Of a DNA stretch of 64,000 bases, positions 13,342 through 56,896 are shown piece after piece. The DNA is from Leeuwenhoekiella blandensis MED217 (GTDB taxonomy: Bacteria; Bacteroidota; Bacteroidia; Flavobacteriales; Flavobacteriaceae). Below the pieces are notes generated by a model. The model was not told the origin of the DNA and made no database searches. It was given only the letters and a program-made list of their open reading frames with translations. Position 1 is the stretch's first letter; each line of letters starts with the position of its first letter. Location: the NCBI RefSeq assembly GCF_000152985.1, contig NZ_CH672395.1, positions 3,383,823 through 3,447,822 of the forward strand, in the 5' to 3' direction. A program made the position numbers and the translations under genes.

Positions 13342-13965
13342 CTAATCTGAAAACACAGCTTCATTCCCTTTTGCGATCGCTACAAGTTTGCTCAATTGCT
13401 CCTCAAGAATACGATCTTCTGACAACTCAGGCAACGCATCGAGCGCAAACCAATTCACTTCACCAATATCAAAATTGGGCGCAAAATCACCTGCTGTAAT
13501 TTCGCATAAATAGCATAATTTATACACGTAATGCGGTTGCAGCGGGTGCGCATAATTTCGTTTATCGAGCACTGCCAGCAAGCGTTTTACTTCTGCTTTA
13601 AAACCGGTTTCCTCTTCGATTTCTTTCAATACGTTTTCTGTAGGCGTGAGTCCTACATCTGCCCAACCTCCCGGAAGCGTCCATTTACCGTCAACGGTTT
13701 CTTTAACTAATAAAACTTCTCCTTCAGCATTTAAAATCAGTCCGCGTACATCTACTTTAGCCGTGGGATAATCTGTTTCCGGTAGAAAAAAACCAGTGAG
13801 CTGTTCTACCGGCAAATCGCTCAAAATACTCATCATTTCTAAAGCCAATGCACGCAACTCTTCGTAACGTTCGGCATCATAATTCTCTTTGTTATAAACA
13901 AGGCCCGCTTCTGCTAAGGATTTTATTTGCTTTACTTGATTGAGTAGGTTTTCTGAAATGCTCAT
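13342..13965 (-). CDS. NUDIX hydrolase with N-terminal helical domain
   Basis: Hydrolase of a nucleoside-diphosphate-linked substrate. The Nudix box is complete: GGWADVG followed by the REXXEE-type helix KEIEEETGF (around residues 98-120). An N-terminal helical region (LLNQVKQIKSLAEAGLVYNKE) matches the NUDIX_N domain found in ADP-ribose or related pyrophosphatases of Gram-positives and Bacteroidota. At 207 residues the two-domain length is normal. It lies 2 bases downstream of the secreted DinB-like gene and directly upstream of the LytTR regulator, so the three are probably one transcript. The substrate cannot be read from sequence. Confidence 0.9.
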   Translation of the reverse strand: MSISENLLNQVKQIKSLAEAGLVYNKENYDAERYEELRALALEMMSILSDLPVEQLTGFFLPETDYPTAKVDVRGLILNAEGEVLLVKETVDGKWTLPGGWADVGLTPTENVLKEIEEETGFKAEVKRLLAVLDKRNYAHPLQPHYVYKLCYLCEITAGDFAPNFDIGEVNWFALDALPELSEDRILEEQLSKLVAIAKGNEAVFSD

Positions 13966-15914: not shown

Positions 15915-16028
15915 AGGTTTGTTATTAGCGTAATCTCACAATTCTTTTCGCTGCTAAAAATAGCGAAAAACTACGGTCAAAAAGAAGACTTATGAAACTC
16001 CTAACGTTTTCAAGCGAAGCTTTCAGCT

Positions 16029-16130
16029 TAAACAACCTCAGATAAGACTGTGAGACATTTATAAGTAACGTATTGTCAATTTTGATGTAAATAAAGGAGC
16101 ATTAAACCCTTTAGCTTCGCCAAAAATAAA
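16029..16130 (-). repeat. Interspersed structured repeat, copy F (divergent)
   Basis: Read on the minus strand this 102-nt stretch follows the plan of the other copies: TTTTTGGCG, then CTAAAGGGTTTAATGCTCC, then AAAATTGACAATACGTT, AATGTCTC and finally TCTGAGGTTGTTTA. It lies between pssA and the PorV-like gene, in pssA orientation. No terminator hairpin adjoins this copy. Confidence 0.65.
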
Positions 16131-27761: not shown

Positions 27762-27790
27762 AAGTCTGGCCTTTCGGTCAGACTTTTTTT
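27762..27790 (+). terminator. Rho-independent terminator abutting repeat copy A
   Basis: Stem AAGTCTGGCC / GGTCAGACTT (one G-T pair), loop TTTC, then a run of T residues that is also the first part of repeat copy A. Confidence 0.88.
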
Positions 27791-27887
27791 ATTGGCGCCA
27801 TCAAAGGGTTTAATACTCCGAGTTGCCTAAAAATTGAAAATTCGTTTCCAACCAATGACTCATATACTTGCCCTAAGGCAGTTTACT
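27784..27887 (+). repeat. Interspersed structured repeat, copy A, leader of an MFS gene
   Basis: This 104-nt copy begins in the terminator T run and reads TTTTATTGGCGCC, TCAAAGGGTTTAATACTCC, AAATTGAAAATTCGTTT, and ends AGGCAGTTTACT. It aligns over its full length with copy B at 49976-50078. The MFS start codon lies 10 bases after its end. Confidence 0.85.
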
Positions 27888-27897
27888 TAATAACACT

Positions 27898-38225: not shown

Positions 38226-38255
38226 AAAAGCTCCGTTTTTACGGGGCTTTTTTTT
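38226..38255 (+). terminator. Rho-independent terminator abutting repeat copy D
   Basis: Stem AAAAGCTCCGT / ACGGGGCTTTT with one wobble pair and a 4-nt loop, followed by a long T run in which the repeat begins. Confidence 0.85.
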
Positions 38256-38347
38256 ATTGCTCCCATCAAAAGGGTATAATACCTGAAGACAGGGCTCCAG
38301 ATACAAAGTTGTTATCAACAAATGCCTTCTAAGCCCGCTACTGTCAG
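38248..38347 (+). repeat. Interspersed structured repeat, copy D (divergent)
   Basis: Starts in the terminator T run with TTTTTATTGCTCCC, then ATCAAAAGGGTATAATACC, and continues with AAAGTTGTTATCAACAAATG, which aligns to the AAATTCGTTTCCAACCAATG block of copy A. The last third is poorly conserved. It lies between the coiled-coil gene and msrA. Confidence 0.55.
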
Positions 38348-38406
38348 CCGGAAAGACTCGTTTCAATATAGCTTACAGACCAGTTTAACAGCCTCTTAGG
38401 AGAGTC

Positions 38407-45829: not shown

Positions 45830-47662
45830 TCATTTATAGCCTTGGGCTTGTAGCTCAAACAGTTCGGCATAGAGTTTTGGGGTTTTCATCAGTTCGTCGT
45901 GCGTTCCTAACTCCAGGATTTTTCCATGTTTAAGAACCAGAATACGATCTGCCATACGCACTGTACTGAAACGATGGGATATGATTATGCTGGTTTTTCC
46001 TTTAGTCAGATCAATAAACCGTTCAAAAACCTCGTACTCTGCTTTAGCATCTAAAGCCGCAGTTGGTTCGTCTAGAATCATCACTTTAGCATCTGTCATA
46101 TAAGCACGTGCCAAAGCTACTTTTTGCCATTGTCCGCCTGAAAGTTCCTGCCCTTTTTTAAAGCGTTTACCTAATTGGGTTTCTACACCTTCTTCAAGCG
46201 CATCGATCACTTCACTCGCCAAACTCAATTCTGCGGCCTGCCCAATGCGATGATTATCTGTAACTGCATCAATGGCCCCTACGGCTATATTTTCGCGCAG
46301 CGTAAACTCATACCTGAAAAAATCCTGAAAAATCACACCAAACATCTTCTGATAGTGTGCCTTATCGTATCGATTGATATTTACGCCATCCAGCAAGATC
46401 TCTCCTTGTGTAGGTTCATAAAAACGAAGCATCAACTTGATCAATGTGGTTTTACCCGCTCCATTCTCTCCTACAAAAGCCATTTTCTCTCCCGCTTTCA
46501 ATTTGAAACTTACCCCTTTTAAAACCTCGTATTCACTTTCAGGATAACCAAAATGCACATTTACCAATTCAAAACCTTGGGTGATCGCTTGTGGTAACTC
46601 TAGAAATGATTTTTGAGCATCAGGAATTTCCAAATCGATAAAATCAAAGTAATCTTTAAGATATAACGCACGTTGAGTGATCTGGGTAAAATTGGTAAAA
46701 AAGGATTGCAAGCTGTTGCGCAAGCGATTAAAGGAGGCTGATAAAAAGGTCAATTCTCCTACGGTTATCTGCCCATCCAAAACACTTTTGATGATCACCA
46801 GATATGCAGCATAATAGCACACCACTCCCAGAATATTAAAAACGGCACTGTAAGCACTGCGCTTGATCGTAAGTTTCTTATTTATTTGATAATATTCCTC
46901 GCTGAGTTTTTTAAATCTACTTGCAATAAAATCGGTCAACCCAAAGAGTTTAATCTCTTTAGCTGTTTTATCATTAGCCCCAATATATCTCAGATAATCA
47001 AGCTCTCGCCGCTCGGCAGTCCAGCTGCGTGATAACGAATATTGCTGCCCGCTAAAACGAATTTCATTAATAAATAACGGAATGATACTAAGTGCCAGTA
47101 AGACGATCAACATCGGCTGAAAATAGACCAGCCCGGCGATAAGTGTACTTATAGAAATAAGGCTTTGTAACTGACTGAGTGATGTACTCATAAGTCCTAC
47201 CCTGCCCTGAGTTTGCTGGCGTGCACGTTCAAGCTTATCGTAAAATTCAGAATCTTCAAGCTGCGCCATGTCGATCTTACTGGTTTTACGTATCATTTTT
47301 TCTGAAGAAATGATATTGTATTTATCACCCAGCAAACCATCTGAAATCGCGATTCCTCGATTGATGATGTCGGCAATAATGATGATGACAAATTCCAGCA
47401 GCACATAGTTCCAAAGCTGCTCATAATTTGCAGGTGATGCGTTAATTTGGGTAATGATCTCATCAATGATCAATTTTCCTACCCATAGAATCACCACCGG
47501 TGAGAATGCATTGATTATACGCCCCAGAAGATTAAGACCAAAGAGCAATTTACTTACCCGACTGATCTCTTTAAAAAATCGCGGAATGTAGCGCAGTGCC
47601 TGAAAGGAAGCACGCACGTTTGTTTTTTTGGTATCGGTAATGCTATCTAGTCTTCTCGCCAT
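45830..47662 (-). CDS. ABC exporter with fused membrane and ATPase domains
   Basis: Half-transporter of 610 residues with about six membrane helices (residues about 30-320) and a C-terminal ATPase. Motifs are Walker A GENGAGKTT, Q-loop FGVIFQDFFRYEFTLREN, signature ELSGGQWQKVALARAYM, Walker B VMILDEPTAALDAKAE and the H-loop ISHRFSTVRMADRI. The LSGGQWQK signature is typical of lipid- or peptide-exporting ABCB-like half transporters in Bacteroidota. No peptidase C39 domain is present. It probably acts as a homodimer; substrate unknown. Confidence 0.9.
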   Translation of the reverse strand: MARRLDSITDTKKTNVRASFQALRYIPRFFKEISRVSKLLFGLNLLGRIINAFSPVVILWVGKLIIDEIITQINASPANYEQLWNYVLLEFVIIIIADIINRGIAISDGLLGDKYNIISSEKMIRKTSKIDMAQLEDSEFYDKLERARQQTQGRVGLMSTSLSQLQSLISISTLIAGLVYFQPMLIVLLALSIIPLFINEIRFSGQQYSLSRSWTAERRELDYLRYIGANDKTAKEIKLFGLTDFIASRFKKLSEEYYQINKKLTIKRSAYSAVFNILGVVCYYAAYLVIIKSVLDGQITVGELTFLSASFNRLRNSLQSFFTNFTQITQRALYLKDYFDFIDLEIPDAQKSFLELPQAITQGFELVNVHFGYPESEYEVLKGVSFKLKAGEKMAFVGENGAGKTTLIKLMLRFYEPTQGEILLDGVNINRYDKAHYQKMFGVIFQDFFRYEFTLRENIAVGAIDAVTDNHRIGQAAELSLASEVIDALEEGVETQLGKRFKKGQELSGGQWQKVALARAYMTDAKVMILDEPTAALDAKAEYEVFERFIDLTKGKTSIIISHRFSTVRMADRILVLKHGKILELGTHDELMKTPKLYAELFELQAQGYK

Positions 47663-49808: not shown

Positions 49809-49975
49809 AACCTGATTCTAAAATGCAAAATTAATCTATGTTATTACAAATCGCGGGCAGCCGGATGTTATTAAAATCGTAAAGTAAGCGCTGATTTTCT
49901 TAAGGCAACGATGTAGTAGACTACAGTAAACCAATTCGAGAAAGGCTTTGAAGTGACAAAGTATTAGATATTGCC
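49809..49975. other. Non-coding stretch between the Bcr/CflA gene and repeat copy B
   Basis: No gene is supported here. A 63-codon frame on the minus strand spans this region and part of repeat copy B, with an unusual composition (many Cys, aromatic and basic residues), and is judged spurious. With copy B and the next terminator it makes a gap of about 300 bases. Confidence 0.4.
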
Positions 49976-50078
49976 AGTAAACTATTTTAGGGCAAACCCG
50001 AGACATTGCTTGAAAACGAATTTTCAATTGCGAGGCAAGCCTTGGAGTATCAAACCCTTTGACGGTGCCAATAAAAAA
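49976..50078 (-). repeat. Interspersed structured repeat, copy B (best-preserved)
   Basis: Minus-strand reading starts in a terminator T run, TTTTTTATTGGCACC, then GTCAAAGGGTTTGATACTCC, and ends TAGTTTACT after 103 nt. It contains the hairpin TTGAAAA-TTCG-TTTTCAA (50010-50027 on the plus strand), a perfect 7-bp stem, and the near-palindrome AGGCTTGCCT (50033-50042). It aligns throughout with copy A. It points toward the Bcr/CflA-type MFS gene. Confidence 0.85.
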
Positions 50079-53213: not shown

Positions 53214-53222
53214 CAATTTTAA

Positions 53223-53349
53223 AGTGAACTACCTCAGGACAAACCTGTCTGTCGACAAAGGAAAGCCCTAAAGAAAGTTATTAAAGTTAAATTTTCAATT
53301 TAAAAACAAGCCTAAGAGTATTAAACCCTTTGGCGGCACCAATAAAAAA
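53223..53349 (-). repeat. Interspersed structured repeat, copy C, leader of an MFS gene
   Basis: Minus-strand reading is TTTTTTATTGGTGCC, then GCCAAAGGGTTTAATACTC, then AAATTGAAAATTTAACTTT, and it ends GTCCTGAGGTAGTTCACT. The central part is longer than in copies A and B (127 nt overall). It abuts the start region of the MFS gene and faces kynU on the other side. No terminator hairpin adjoins it. Confidence 0.8.
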
Positions 53350-56208: not shown

Positions 56209-56853
56209 ATGCATTTTATCTCAGAAGATCTTGACGATTATGCAGTAGCGCACTCTGAAAAGGAGCCCGAGTTACTGCGCCAGCTTACCCGGGAGACTTA
56301 TCAAAAAGTGGTTCAACCGCGTATGCTAAGCGGGCATTACCAAGGCCGTATCTTGAGTATGATCGCTAAACTGGTAAATCCTAAGGTCATTCTAGAAATA
56401 GGCACCTATACCGGCTATTCGGCCTTATGCTTAGCTGAAGGTTTACAACCTGACGGCATCTTGCACACCATAGATGTAAATGAAGAACTTGTTGATCTGC
56501 AAAAAAAGTACTTTGATGCTTCGGCCTATGCAGCTAACATCAAACAACACTTGGGTCCGGCGCTAGAGATCATTCCGCAGCTGGATGAAGACTTTGACCT
56601 CGTTTTTATGGATGCAGATAAGCCCAATTACCCCGCTTATTTTGATATGATCGTTGACCGTATCAGACCGGGCGGACTCTTACTTTCTGACAATGTATTG
56701 TGGAGTGGTAAAGTGGTAGAGCCGCTAAATCCTAAAGACAGCTCTACAAAAGCGCTTTTAGAATACAATCGCCTACTGGCGGATGACGAACGTCTGGAGA
56801 CCGTATTGCTCACCATTCGCGACGGACTCACCATAAGCAGGAAACGCGGGTAG
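56209..56853 (+). CDS. O-methyltransferase (catechol/caffeoyl-CoA type)
   Basis: A 214-residue SAM-dependent O-methyltransferase. SAM motif VILEIGTYTGYSALCLAEGL, acidic strand ILHTIDVNEELVDLQKKYF, metal site FDLVFMDADKPNYPAYFDM and SDNVLWSGKVV match the cation-dependent class that methylates catechol-like hydroxyls. It follows kmo by 3 bases, so the natural guess is an ortho-hydroxylated kynurenine-pathway product, but this is inference. No 3-hydroxyanthranilate dioxygenase gene is adjacent. Confidence 0.9.
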   Translation: MHFISEDLDDYAVAHSEKEPELLRQLTRETYQKVVQPRMLSGHYQGRILSMIAKLVNPKVILEIGTYTGYSALCLAEGLQPDGILHTIDVNEELVDLQKKYFDASAYAANIKQHLGPALEIIPQLDEDFDLVFMDADKPNYPAYFDMIVDRIRPGGLLLSDNVLWSGKVVEPLNPKDSSTKALLEYNRLLADDERLETVLLTIRDGLTISRKRG

Positions 56854-56896
56854 TTGAATTTCCTCAGAGCATTATTCCTTTTGATTCCAATAAAAA
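56853..56896 (-). repeat. Interspersed structured repeat, copy E (truncated)
   Basis: Minus-strand reading is TTTTTATTGGAATC, then AAAAGGAATAATGCTC, then TGAGGAAATTCAACTA. It looks like the start and end of the element joined with the middle deleted. It begins at a terminator hairpin and runs to the O-methyltransferase stop. Confidence 0.5.

Follow-up and report, generated by a model that had tools for sequence, protein, structure and literature searches.

The 64,000-nt stretch of the Leeuwenhoekiella blandensis MED217 genome analysed here (the window) contains several copies of a short, palindrome-rich intergenic repeat. The two clearest are copy A, whose element proper of 94 nt lies at 27794-27887 on the plus strand between the tips GGCGCC (left) and TTTACT (right), and copy B, also 94 nt, at 49976-50069 on the minus strand. 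The left end of copy A adjoins a target-like hexamer, TTTATT (27788-27793, plus strand), within a terminator T-tract; the terminator hairpin, AAAAGTCTGGCC-TTTC-GGTCAGACTTTT, is directly upstream of the hexamer. Copy B has a target-like TTTATT at 50070-50075 and a same-strand terminator hairpin just upstream. Copy E (53223-53340, minus strand) is a long form of about 118 nt with a hairpin insert in the right-end stem, copy D (16027-16121, minus strand) is decayed and has approximate ends, and copy C (38259-38377, plus strand) is strongly decayed, its left end clear and its right end uncertain.

The first-pass annotation of this DNA had claimed six copies. Scoring of the window with covariance model R1, filters off, places five of these above chance: A (27787-27888, E=5.6e-26), B (49975-50076, E=2.7e-29), E (53222-53347, E=4.7e-20), D (16026-16128, E=6e-12), and C (38252-38378, E=1.9e-6). 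The scores of A and B are high partly by construction, because both (as L022 and L001) are among the 28 copies used to build the model; D, E, and C are outside that set. The sixth stretch (56852-56895, minus strand) fell away, with E=2, like about ten other chance-level matches. Since it follows a terminator and starts with TTTATTGG, it may be an internally deleted remnant. A scan with the 32-nt left end ranks the same five stretches first, with scores of 28, 27, 26, 19, and 15 against at most 14 in three shuffled windows. Two weak left-end-like matches in the window (46931-46957 and 13561-13591) score 14, the shuffled-window level.

The 28 aligned copies are 102-127 nt long including flank letters, which is too short for a transposase, and yield the consensus TTTTATTGGCACCGCCAAAGGGTTTAATACTCCGAGGCTTGCCTCGAAATTGAAAATTCGTTTCCAAGCAATGCCTCATGGGCTTGCCCTGAGGTAGTTTACTT. 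The unit of about 96 nt holds only a left end, a linker, and a right end. The left end comprises the tip hairpin TTGGC-ACC-GCCAA, a spacer AAGGGTTTAATACTC, and the hairpin CGAGG-CTTG-CCTCG; after a 26-nt linker with a AATTGAAAATTCGTT-like core, the right end consists of the hairpin CCTCR-TGGGC-TT-GCCC-YGAGG, followed by TAGTTTACT. Two hairpins had originally been drawn in copy B. The second, AGGCTTGCCT, is real and conserved, while TTGAAAA-TTCG-TTTTCAA is not general: the consensus has TTTCCAA at that place, and the block is conserved as sequence and not as a helix.

The length of the unit varies. Of 79 copies scoring at least 60 bits, 50 measure 99-108 nt, 15 measure 120-130 nt, and 7 measure 109-119 nt, with 4 longer and 3 shorter. 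In the 120-130-nt forms that were inspected, a hairpin of 22 nt and CCTGCCTTTGTCGGCAGACAGG type is inserted into the stem of the right end. Core-deleted forms of about 58 nt occur at L088, L090, L096, and L097, and nested palindromes at L086, L092, and L100, for example ATCCCGATAGCTATCGGGAT, which replaces or fills the left hairpin. L100 and L003 represent one insertion site in two species, with differing hairpins. There is also a sister family whose left tip reads TTTACTCGATAATCGAGATTTAAATGCTCC and which continues with a CGAGGCTTGCCTCG hairpin and a right end of the same kind (L271:1656, L275:1821, L279, L285:560 on the minus strand, L127, L130, L137, L140, and L087:3846); its tip pattern gives 13 matches in the fetched loci, which are not all distinct (L079 is the same place as L269, and L129 is chance-like). 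Distinct from these is a dispersed repeat of CTCGGGTAAAGTACGGGTGAACTATGGGTGAA type, about 40-45 nt long, found at several places each in genomes G003, G006, and G010, for example in the upstream flank of L151.

Has the unit moved? Clean filled and empty pairs were found at six of the 11 sites compared between sister species (L148, L166, L146, L149, L167, and L071); the sites are orthologous or paralogous, and the flank matches used are 84-97% identical. The empty site has a single T-rich hexamer, TTTATT or a near match (TTGATT at L148, TTTTAA at L071). The filled site has the T-rich hexamer, then the unit, with a TTTACT-like hexamer at the right tip of the unit. In the six clean pairs no target sequence is duplicated beyond the shared hexamer. 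L148 and L146 were judged by eye, outside the boundary-fit computation, and the pair at L148 may represent a loss, because G003 lacks the element while both G010 and the more distant G006 have it. The sites left out were L145 (where G006 has a sister-type element), L165 and L170 (imprecise), L168 (G003 diverged, G006 partly deleted), and L171 (internal deletion in G006). One copy in G006 (L061 / L080, G006:C36:74227-74330) interrupts a RAYT-type transposase gene, and its flanks align with the homologue L184.

At the orthologous places in G011, G010, G003, and G006, window copies C and E have no counterpart and copy B no full one; G011 has a left-end-like remnant, TTTATTGGCACTGTTAGAGCC, at the place of copy B. 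Divergence of the intergenic DNA prevents mapping of the ends at these sites; the matched pieces of G011 show 71-87% identity. Between G003 (190 kb) and G010 (200 kb), a syntenic stretch whose longest blocks are 98.3-98.7% identical has four element matches in each genome at corresponding places and no empty site.

Where does the element begin and end? The boundary fit is exact at L167, is best 1-2 nt to the right of TTTA at L166 (against both G006 and G003) and L071, and does not discriminate between boundaries at L149. The left boundary letters of 78 copies are T 0.92, T 0.96, T 1.00, A 0.85, T 0.99, and T 0.97, frequencies that are partly conditioned because the copies were placed by left-end alignment. 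At the right boundary of 70 copies, TTTA is followed by C (0.66), T (0.83), and then T (0.44), with no clear signal beyond. From these fits and frequencies, the most likely extent of the element is GGCACC to TTTACT, which leaves the TTTATT target outside. What speaks against this extent is that the tip hairpin begins at the TT of TTTATT and that the tip palindrome of the sister family lies directly behind TTTA; the boundary is thus fixed only to within about 2 nt.

The boundaries bear on two other modes of insertion. A site-specific tyrosine recombinase, or an integron-like cassette system acting at a short TTTA core, could explain why TTTA occurs at both ends, why the single strand is foldable, and why tandem copies share a junction; such tandems, joined through the same kind of hexamer, occur in the source genome (1889400-1889692), in G010 (G010:C18:72062-72479), and in G003. 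However, in the best-fitting placement TTTATT lies outside the element and TTTACT within it, and the ends resemble those of Y1 transposons, so that this mode of insertion is very unlikely. To our knowledge the repeat has no attC-type core letters, as judged by eye. The chance that the repeat is a classical miniature inverted-repeat element (MITE) of a DDE transposase is close to negligible: size, copy number, and want of a gene of its own would fit, but the aligned copies lack terminal inverted repeats and show no duplication other than the shared T-rich hexamer.

It had also been proposed that the repeat is a structured RNA, and a cis-regulatory RNA dispersed in 3' regions would account for the conserved hairpins and for the 33 of 78 copies found just behind a terminator. 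Subterminal palindromes are indeed present at both ends, and in 43 copies from many genera 91.9% of 816 cells are paired. A covariation check on these 43 copies pointed in both directions, as the score of 0.132 is above that of all 500 shuffles, whereas the number of doubly changed pairs (5, against 3.4 in shuffles) is reached by 93 of the 500. In the right-end helix double changes affect four of nine pairs, chiefly through a G-C/A-T switch between subfamilies (13 of 20 doubly changed cells). As far as the alignment goes, this pattern suits a DNA hairpin that would have been maintained while the family was active and has been decaying since. The 33 copies sit beyond a terminator on their own strand and would require read-through to be transcribed. 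Rfam gives no match at gathering score in the window; at four repeat-bearing loci it yields four matches, all below threshold (E 0.33 to 3.3). The RNAalifold covariation term is -0.02. Finally, presence and absence vary at orthologous sites. The repeat is mobile DNA and not an RNA motif, and a function as RNA is a highly improbable explanation of its dispersal.

The possibility that the genome holds few further copies did not materialise. Model R1 finds at least 128 copies at E<=0.01 in the 4.24-Mb genome (150 of 2260 candidates scored), and BLAST with copy B gives at least 41 genomic matches (40 of 107 candidates scored). A search of other Flavobacteriaceae, which the first-pass annotation had suggested, also gave matches: with ten candidates scored per genome, the model matches at E<=1e-8 in at least 41 of 397 genomes and at least 32 of 237 genera. 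Within the genus Leeuwenhoekiella, BLAST at E<=0.001 detects the repeat in the source genome and in eight of 12 relatives, and not in G001, G007, G009, or G012. An exact 28-mer pattern occurs in Leeuwenhoekiella, Maribacter, Zunongwangia, Dokdonia, Salegentibacter, and one uncultured Flavobacteriales bin. This patchy distribution is consistent with horizontal spread. The mean likeness is 84.5% among 11 copies of the source genome and 97.5% among five of the nine copies found in Maribacter, the latter pointing to recent spread there; to judge from these divergences, the repeat is old in the source genome and young in Maribacter.

The copies favour one strand with respect to replication. With the genome split at 0 and 1.96 Mb, 101 of the 128 copies are co-oriented with the leading strand, and their reading strand is the lagging-strand template; the 1.96-Mb split was picked for the strongest bias and stands in for a mapped origin and terminus. 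The GC skew of 34 loci agrees with this split (mean +0.042 below, -0.048 above). Flanks were obtained for 81 of the 128 copies, mostly better-scoring ones, and a poor left end led to the exclusion of three of these; control sites came from the same fetched stretches. The bias is seen in 37 of 45 copies without a terminator, the intergenic TTTATT controls giving 31 of 63 (p=5e-4), and in 24 of 33 copies with a terminator, where the controls give 4 of 17 (p=0.002). Because it persists in terminator-free copies, the strand bias is not a by-product of terminators.

Terminators themselves are a second feature of the insertion sites. A terminator-like hairpin and T-run adjoin 33 of 78 copies; the corresponding figures are 93 of 769 for intergenic TTTA sites (p=4e-10) and 17 of 80 for intergenic sites of the form TTTATT (p=0.006). 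Terminator T-tracts are over-represented as landing sites, which may reflect either targeting or the survival of harmless insertions. Group IIC introns likewise insert behind terminators; what we take to be their 5' letters are absent from the repeat.

Which transposase could have moved the repeat? At E<=0.001 there is no match to Y1_Tnp (PF01797) in the source genome, nor in G003 or G006. One PF01797 match in G010 is P0001 (G010:C21:76554-77006), a protein of 151 aa in an open frame of 156 codons (Y1_Tnp, E=2.4e-34). It matches the solved Y1 transposases 2xm3 (E=5.1e-18), presumably the TnpA of ISDra2, and 2a6m (E=5.2e-12), the ISHp608 transposase. The flanks of the P0001 gene share their layout and many letters with the ends of the repeat, having AGGGTTTAATTCCCCG and a CTTG-loop hairpin on the left and CCTCGTATGCTTGCATCGAGGTAGTTCATT on the right, and relatives of P0001 in other genera likewise carry such ends. 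As ssDNA, the repeat and the P0001 element have similarly folded right ends; the tips of the latter, TTAATC on the left and TTCATT on the right, differ from those of the repeat. When compared with 300 dinucleotide shuffles per flank, the left end matches in nine of 15 P0001-like genes, the right end in seven, and both in five (L205, L211, L215, L217, and L220) at p<=0.01; some of the 15 have internal stop codons, and a sixteenth gene was dropped because its flank was too short. The 12 control Y1 genes of two other groups give one left, one right, and no double match.

Some other Y1 genes have partly similar flanks. In another IS200 group (SHTVSRL...HIVWSTKYRYKVL; L172, L173, L188, L190, L225, L227, L231, and L233), the left end starts with TTTATTGG, as in the repeat, and the right end mostly finishes in GTTTA. 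A Salegentibacter genome contains five copies of this group with the same 162-aa protein. Overall its ends match the repeat less, with one of seven left ends and none of seven right ends at p<=0.01. At 19 further Y1 loci from other genera, raw left-end scores, without shuffle comparison, reach 20-22 at L295, L298, and L299; the right ends of these three score 7-8, which is no match.

The distribution of Y1 genes gives a mixed picture of the donor. Maribacter sp. 4G9, which has the youngest-looking copies, contains two Y1 genes, L177 and L185, with flanks unlike the repeat. Among the 397 genomes, the closest relatives of P0001 (E<=1e-25) are not enriched in carriers of the repeat (3 of 19 genomes, p=0.43), whereas enrichment is seen for Y1 proteins at a greater distance (9 of 20, p=4e-5), the division into near and distant having been chosen after the data were seen. 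Of the 39 genomes with any such Y1 protein, 12 carry the repeat; the corresponding shares are 12 of 41 among carriers and 27 of 356 among the other genomes (p=1.5e-4). None of these p-values is corrected for kinship. No autonomous element with near-identical ends was found. Since the nearest relatives of P0001 do not track the repeat and the source genome has no Y1 match, we can only infer a donor, which, from the likeness of the ends, would be related to P0001 of G010.

Y1-like proteins also include the domesticated RAYTs (TnpA_REP), and the first-pass annotation had considered a REP/REPIN-type element mobilised by a RAYT-type transposase; a RAYT would both maintain and move such an element. 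The copies are numerous, intergenic, and palindromic, and RAYT-type genes (Y[IV]HNNP motif, 186-204 codons open) are present in G004, G009, G010, G011, and Maribacter 4G9. However, none of these five loci has the repeat within about 1.5 kb, and the RAYT genes at L179 and L186 lie among a different repeat, GCGCGAT...ATCGCG (GCGCGATTGCATCGCGTGGTAA type), which is probably their own REP. G009 has a RAYT gene and no BLAST match to the repeat; conversely, PF01797 finds nothing at E<=0.001 in G000, G003, and G006, all of which are rich in copies. In G006, a RAYT gene is itself interrupted by a copy. Moreover, the left end is unlike the right end, and both travel as one unit. Maintenance and movement by a RAYT are thus very unlikely.

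Taken with its sequence features, the repeat is very probably a non-autonomous, palindrome-associated transposable element of the IS200/IS605 kind. The PATEs of Haloquadratum walsbyi are described as non-coding in length, with near-terminal palindromes related to IS605-type transposons, no terminal inverted repeats, and no target duplication; their transposases are missing or broken, repeat-mediated core deletion gives a terminal-only form of about 52 bp, and small repeats are inserted in the palindromes (PMC3119063). As these sequence features are found one by one in the present repeat, along with its core-deleted forms of about 58 nt and hairpin inserts, it is filed as a new family of the PATE kind. 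Unlike the elements described from Haloquadratum, it is bacterial (Flavobacteriaceae) and has other sequences, and an excess of terminator tails and a replication-strand bias have been measured for it.

Similar to the P0001 group of IS200/IS605 elements, the repeat has CTTG-loop hairpins, a T-rich motif 5' of the left end, and ends of the same layout with many of the same letters, the right ends comparing as GTAGTTCATT against GTAGTTTACT. It differs from that group in lacking a transposase gene, in having one more hairpin at the tip, and in the letters of its outermost tip. The P0001 protein has DHVH, as in subclass 1.1, and YVRAQ where the subclass table has Y[IV]ENQ (PMC6006769). In IS608 and ISDra2, as reviewed there, the target lies outside the left end, an equivalent motif lies inside the right end, and the lagging-strand template is preferred (PMC6006769). 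The repeat shares this placing and this preference, and P0001 is homologous to the ISHp608 transposase (2a6m); the target letters differ, and the repeat is non-autonomous. With REP/REPIN sequences it has in common a small size, palindromes, an intergenic location, a high copy number, and a link to the Y1 superfamily; it departs from them in its lack of RAYT linkage, its dissimilar ends, and a larger unit with defined ends. Free-standing IS605 stem-loops, dispersed without a transposase, have been described from Borrelia plasmids as single stem-loops (PMC2775950). The end hairpins of the repeat are dispersed in the same manner, but here two ends travel together in more than 100 copies. An ends-only PATE-like sequence from Halanaerobium hydrogeniformans, reported as one copy of about 271 nt with no working transposase (PMC7290912), is likewise bacterial and IS605-derived and has both ends, whereas the present repeat is an amplified family.

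How could such elements be mobilised? The first-pass proposal of a MITE-like element moved by an IS200-type transposase is supported by the filled and empty sites, the absence of terminal inverted repeats, the subterminal hairpins, and the Y1-like ends. Next to what was observed directly (copy number, ends to about 2 nt, the target hexamer without further duplication, strand bias, and Y1-like ends), we infer trans-mobilisation and an ssDNA circle. A Y1 (HUH) transposase would bind the end hairpins in trans and cut the exposed single strand, on the left 3' of TTTATT and on the right 3' of TTTACT. The excised single-strand circle would then be joined 3' of another TTTATT in the lagging-strand template. 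It is tempting to speculate, though doubtful, that the elements home to Rho-independent terminators, where the T-tract would supply both TTTATT and exposed ssDNA and Y1 enzymes would place their passengers harmlessly; the elements might thereby outlive their transposase and be re-mobilised by passing Y1 elements, hit and run, across dozens of genera.

A literature search of open-licence full texts found no published description of this family. An apparently unnamed, abundant family of non-autonomous ssDNA elements is thus added to the Flavobacteriaceae, and it accounts for a class of intergenic repeats that is open to misreading as RNA. With more than 100 insertions in one genome, it also provides a natural data set on the replication-strand bias and the terminator association of Y1-type elements.
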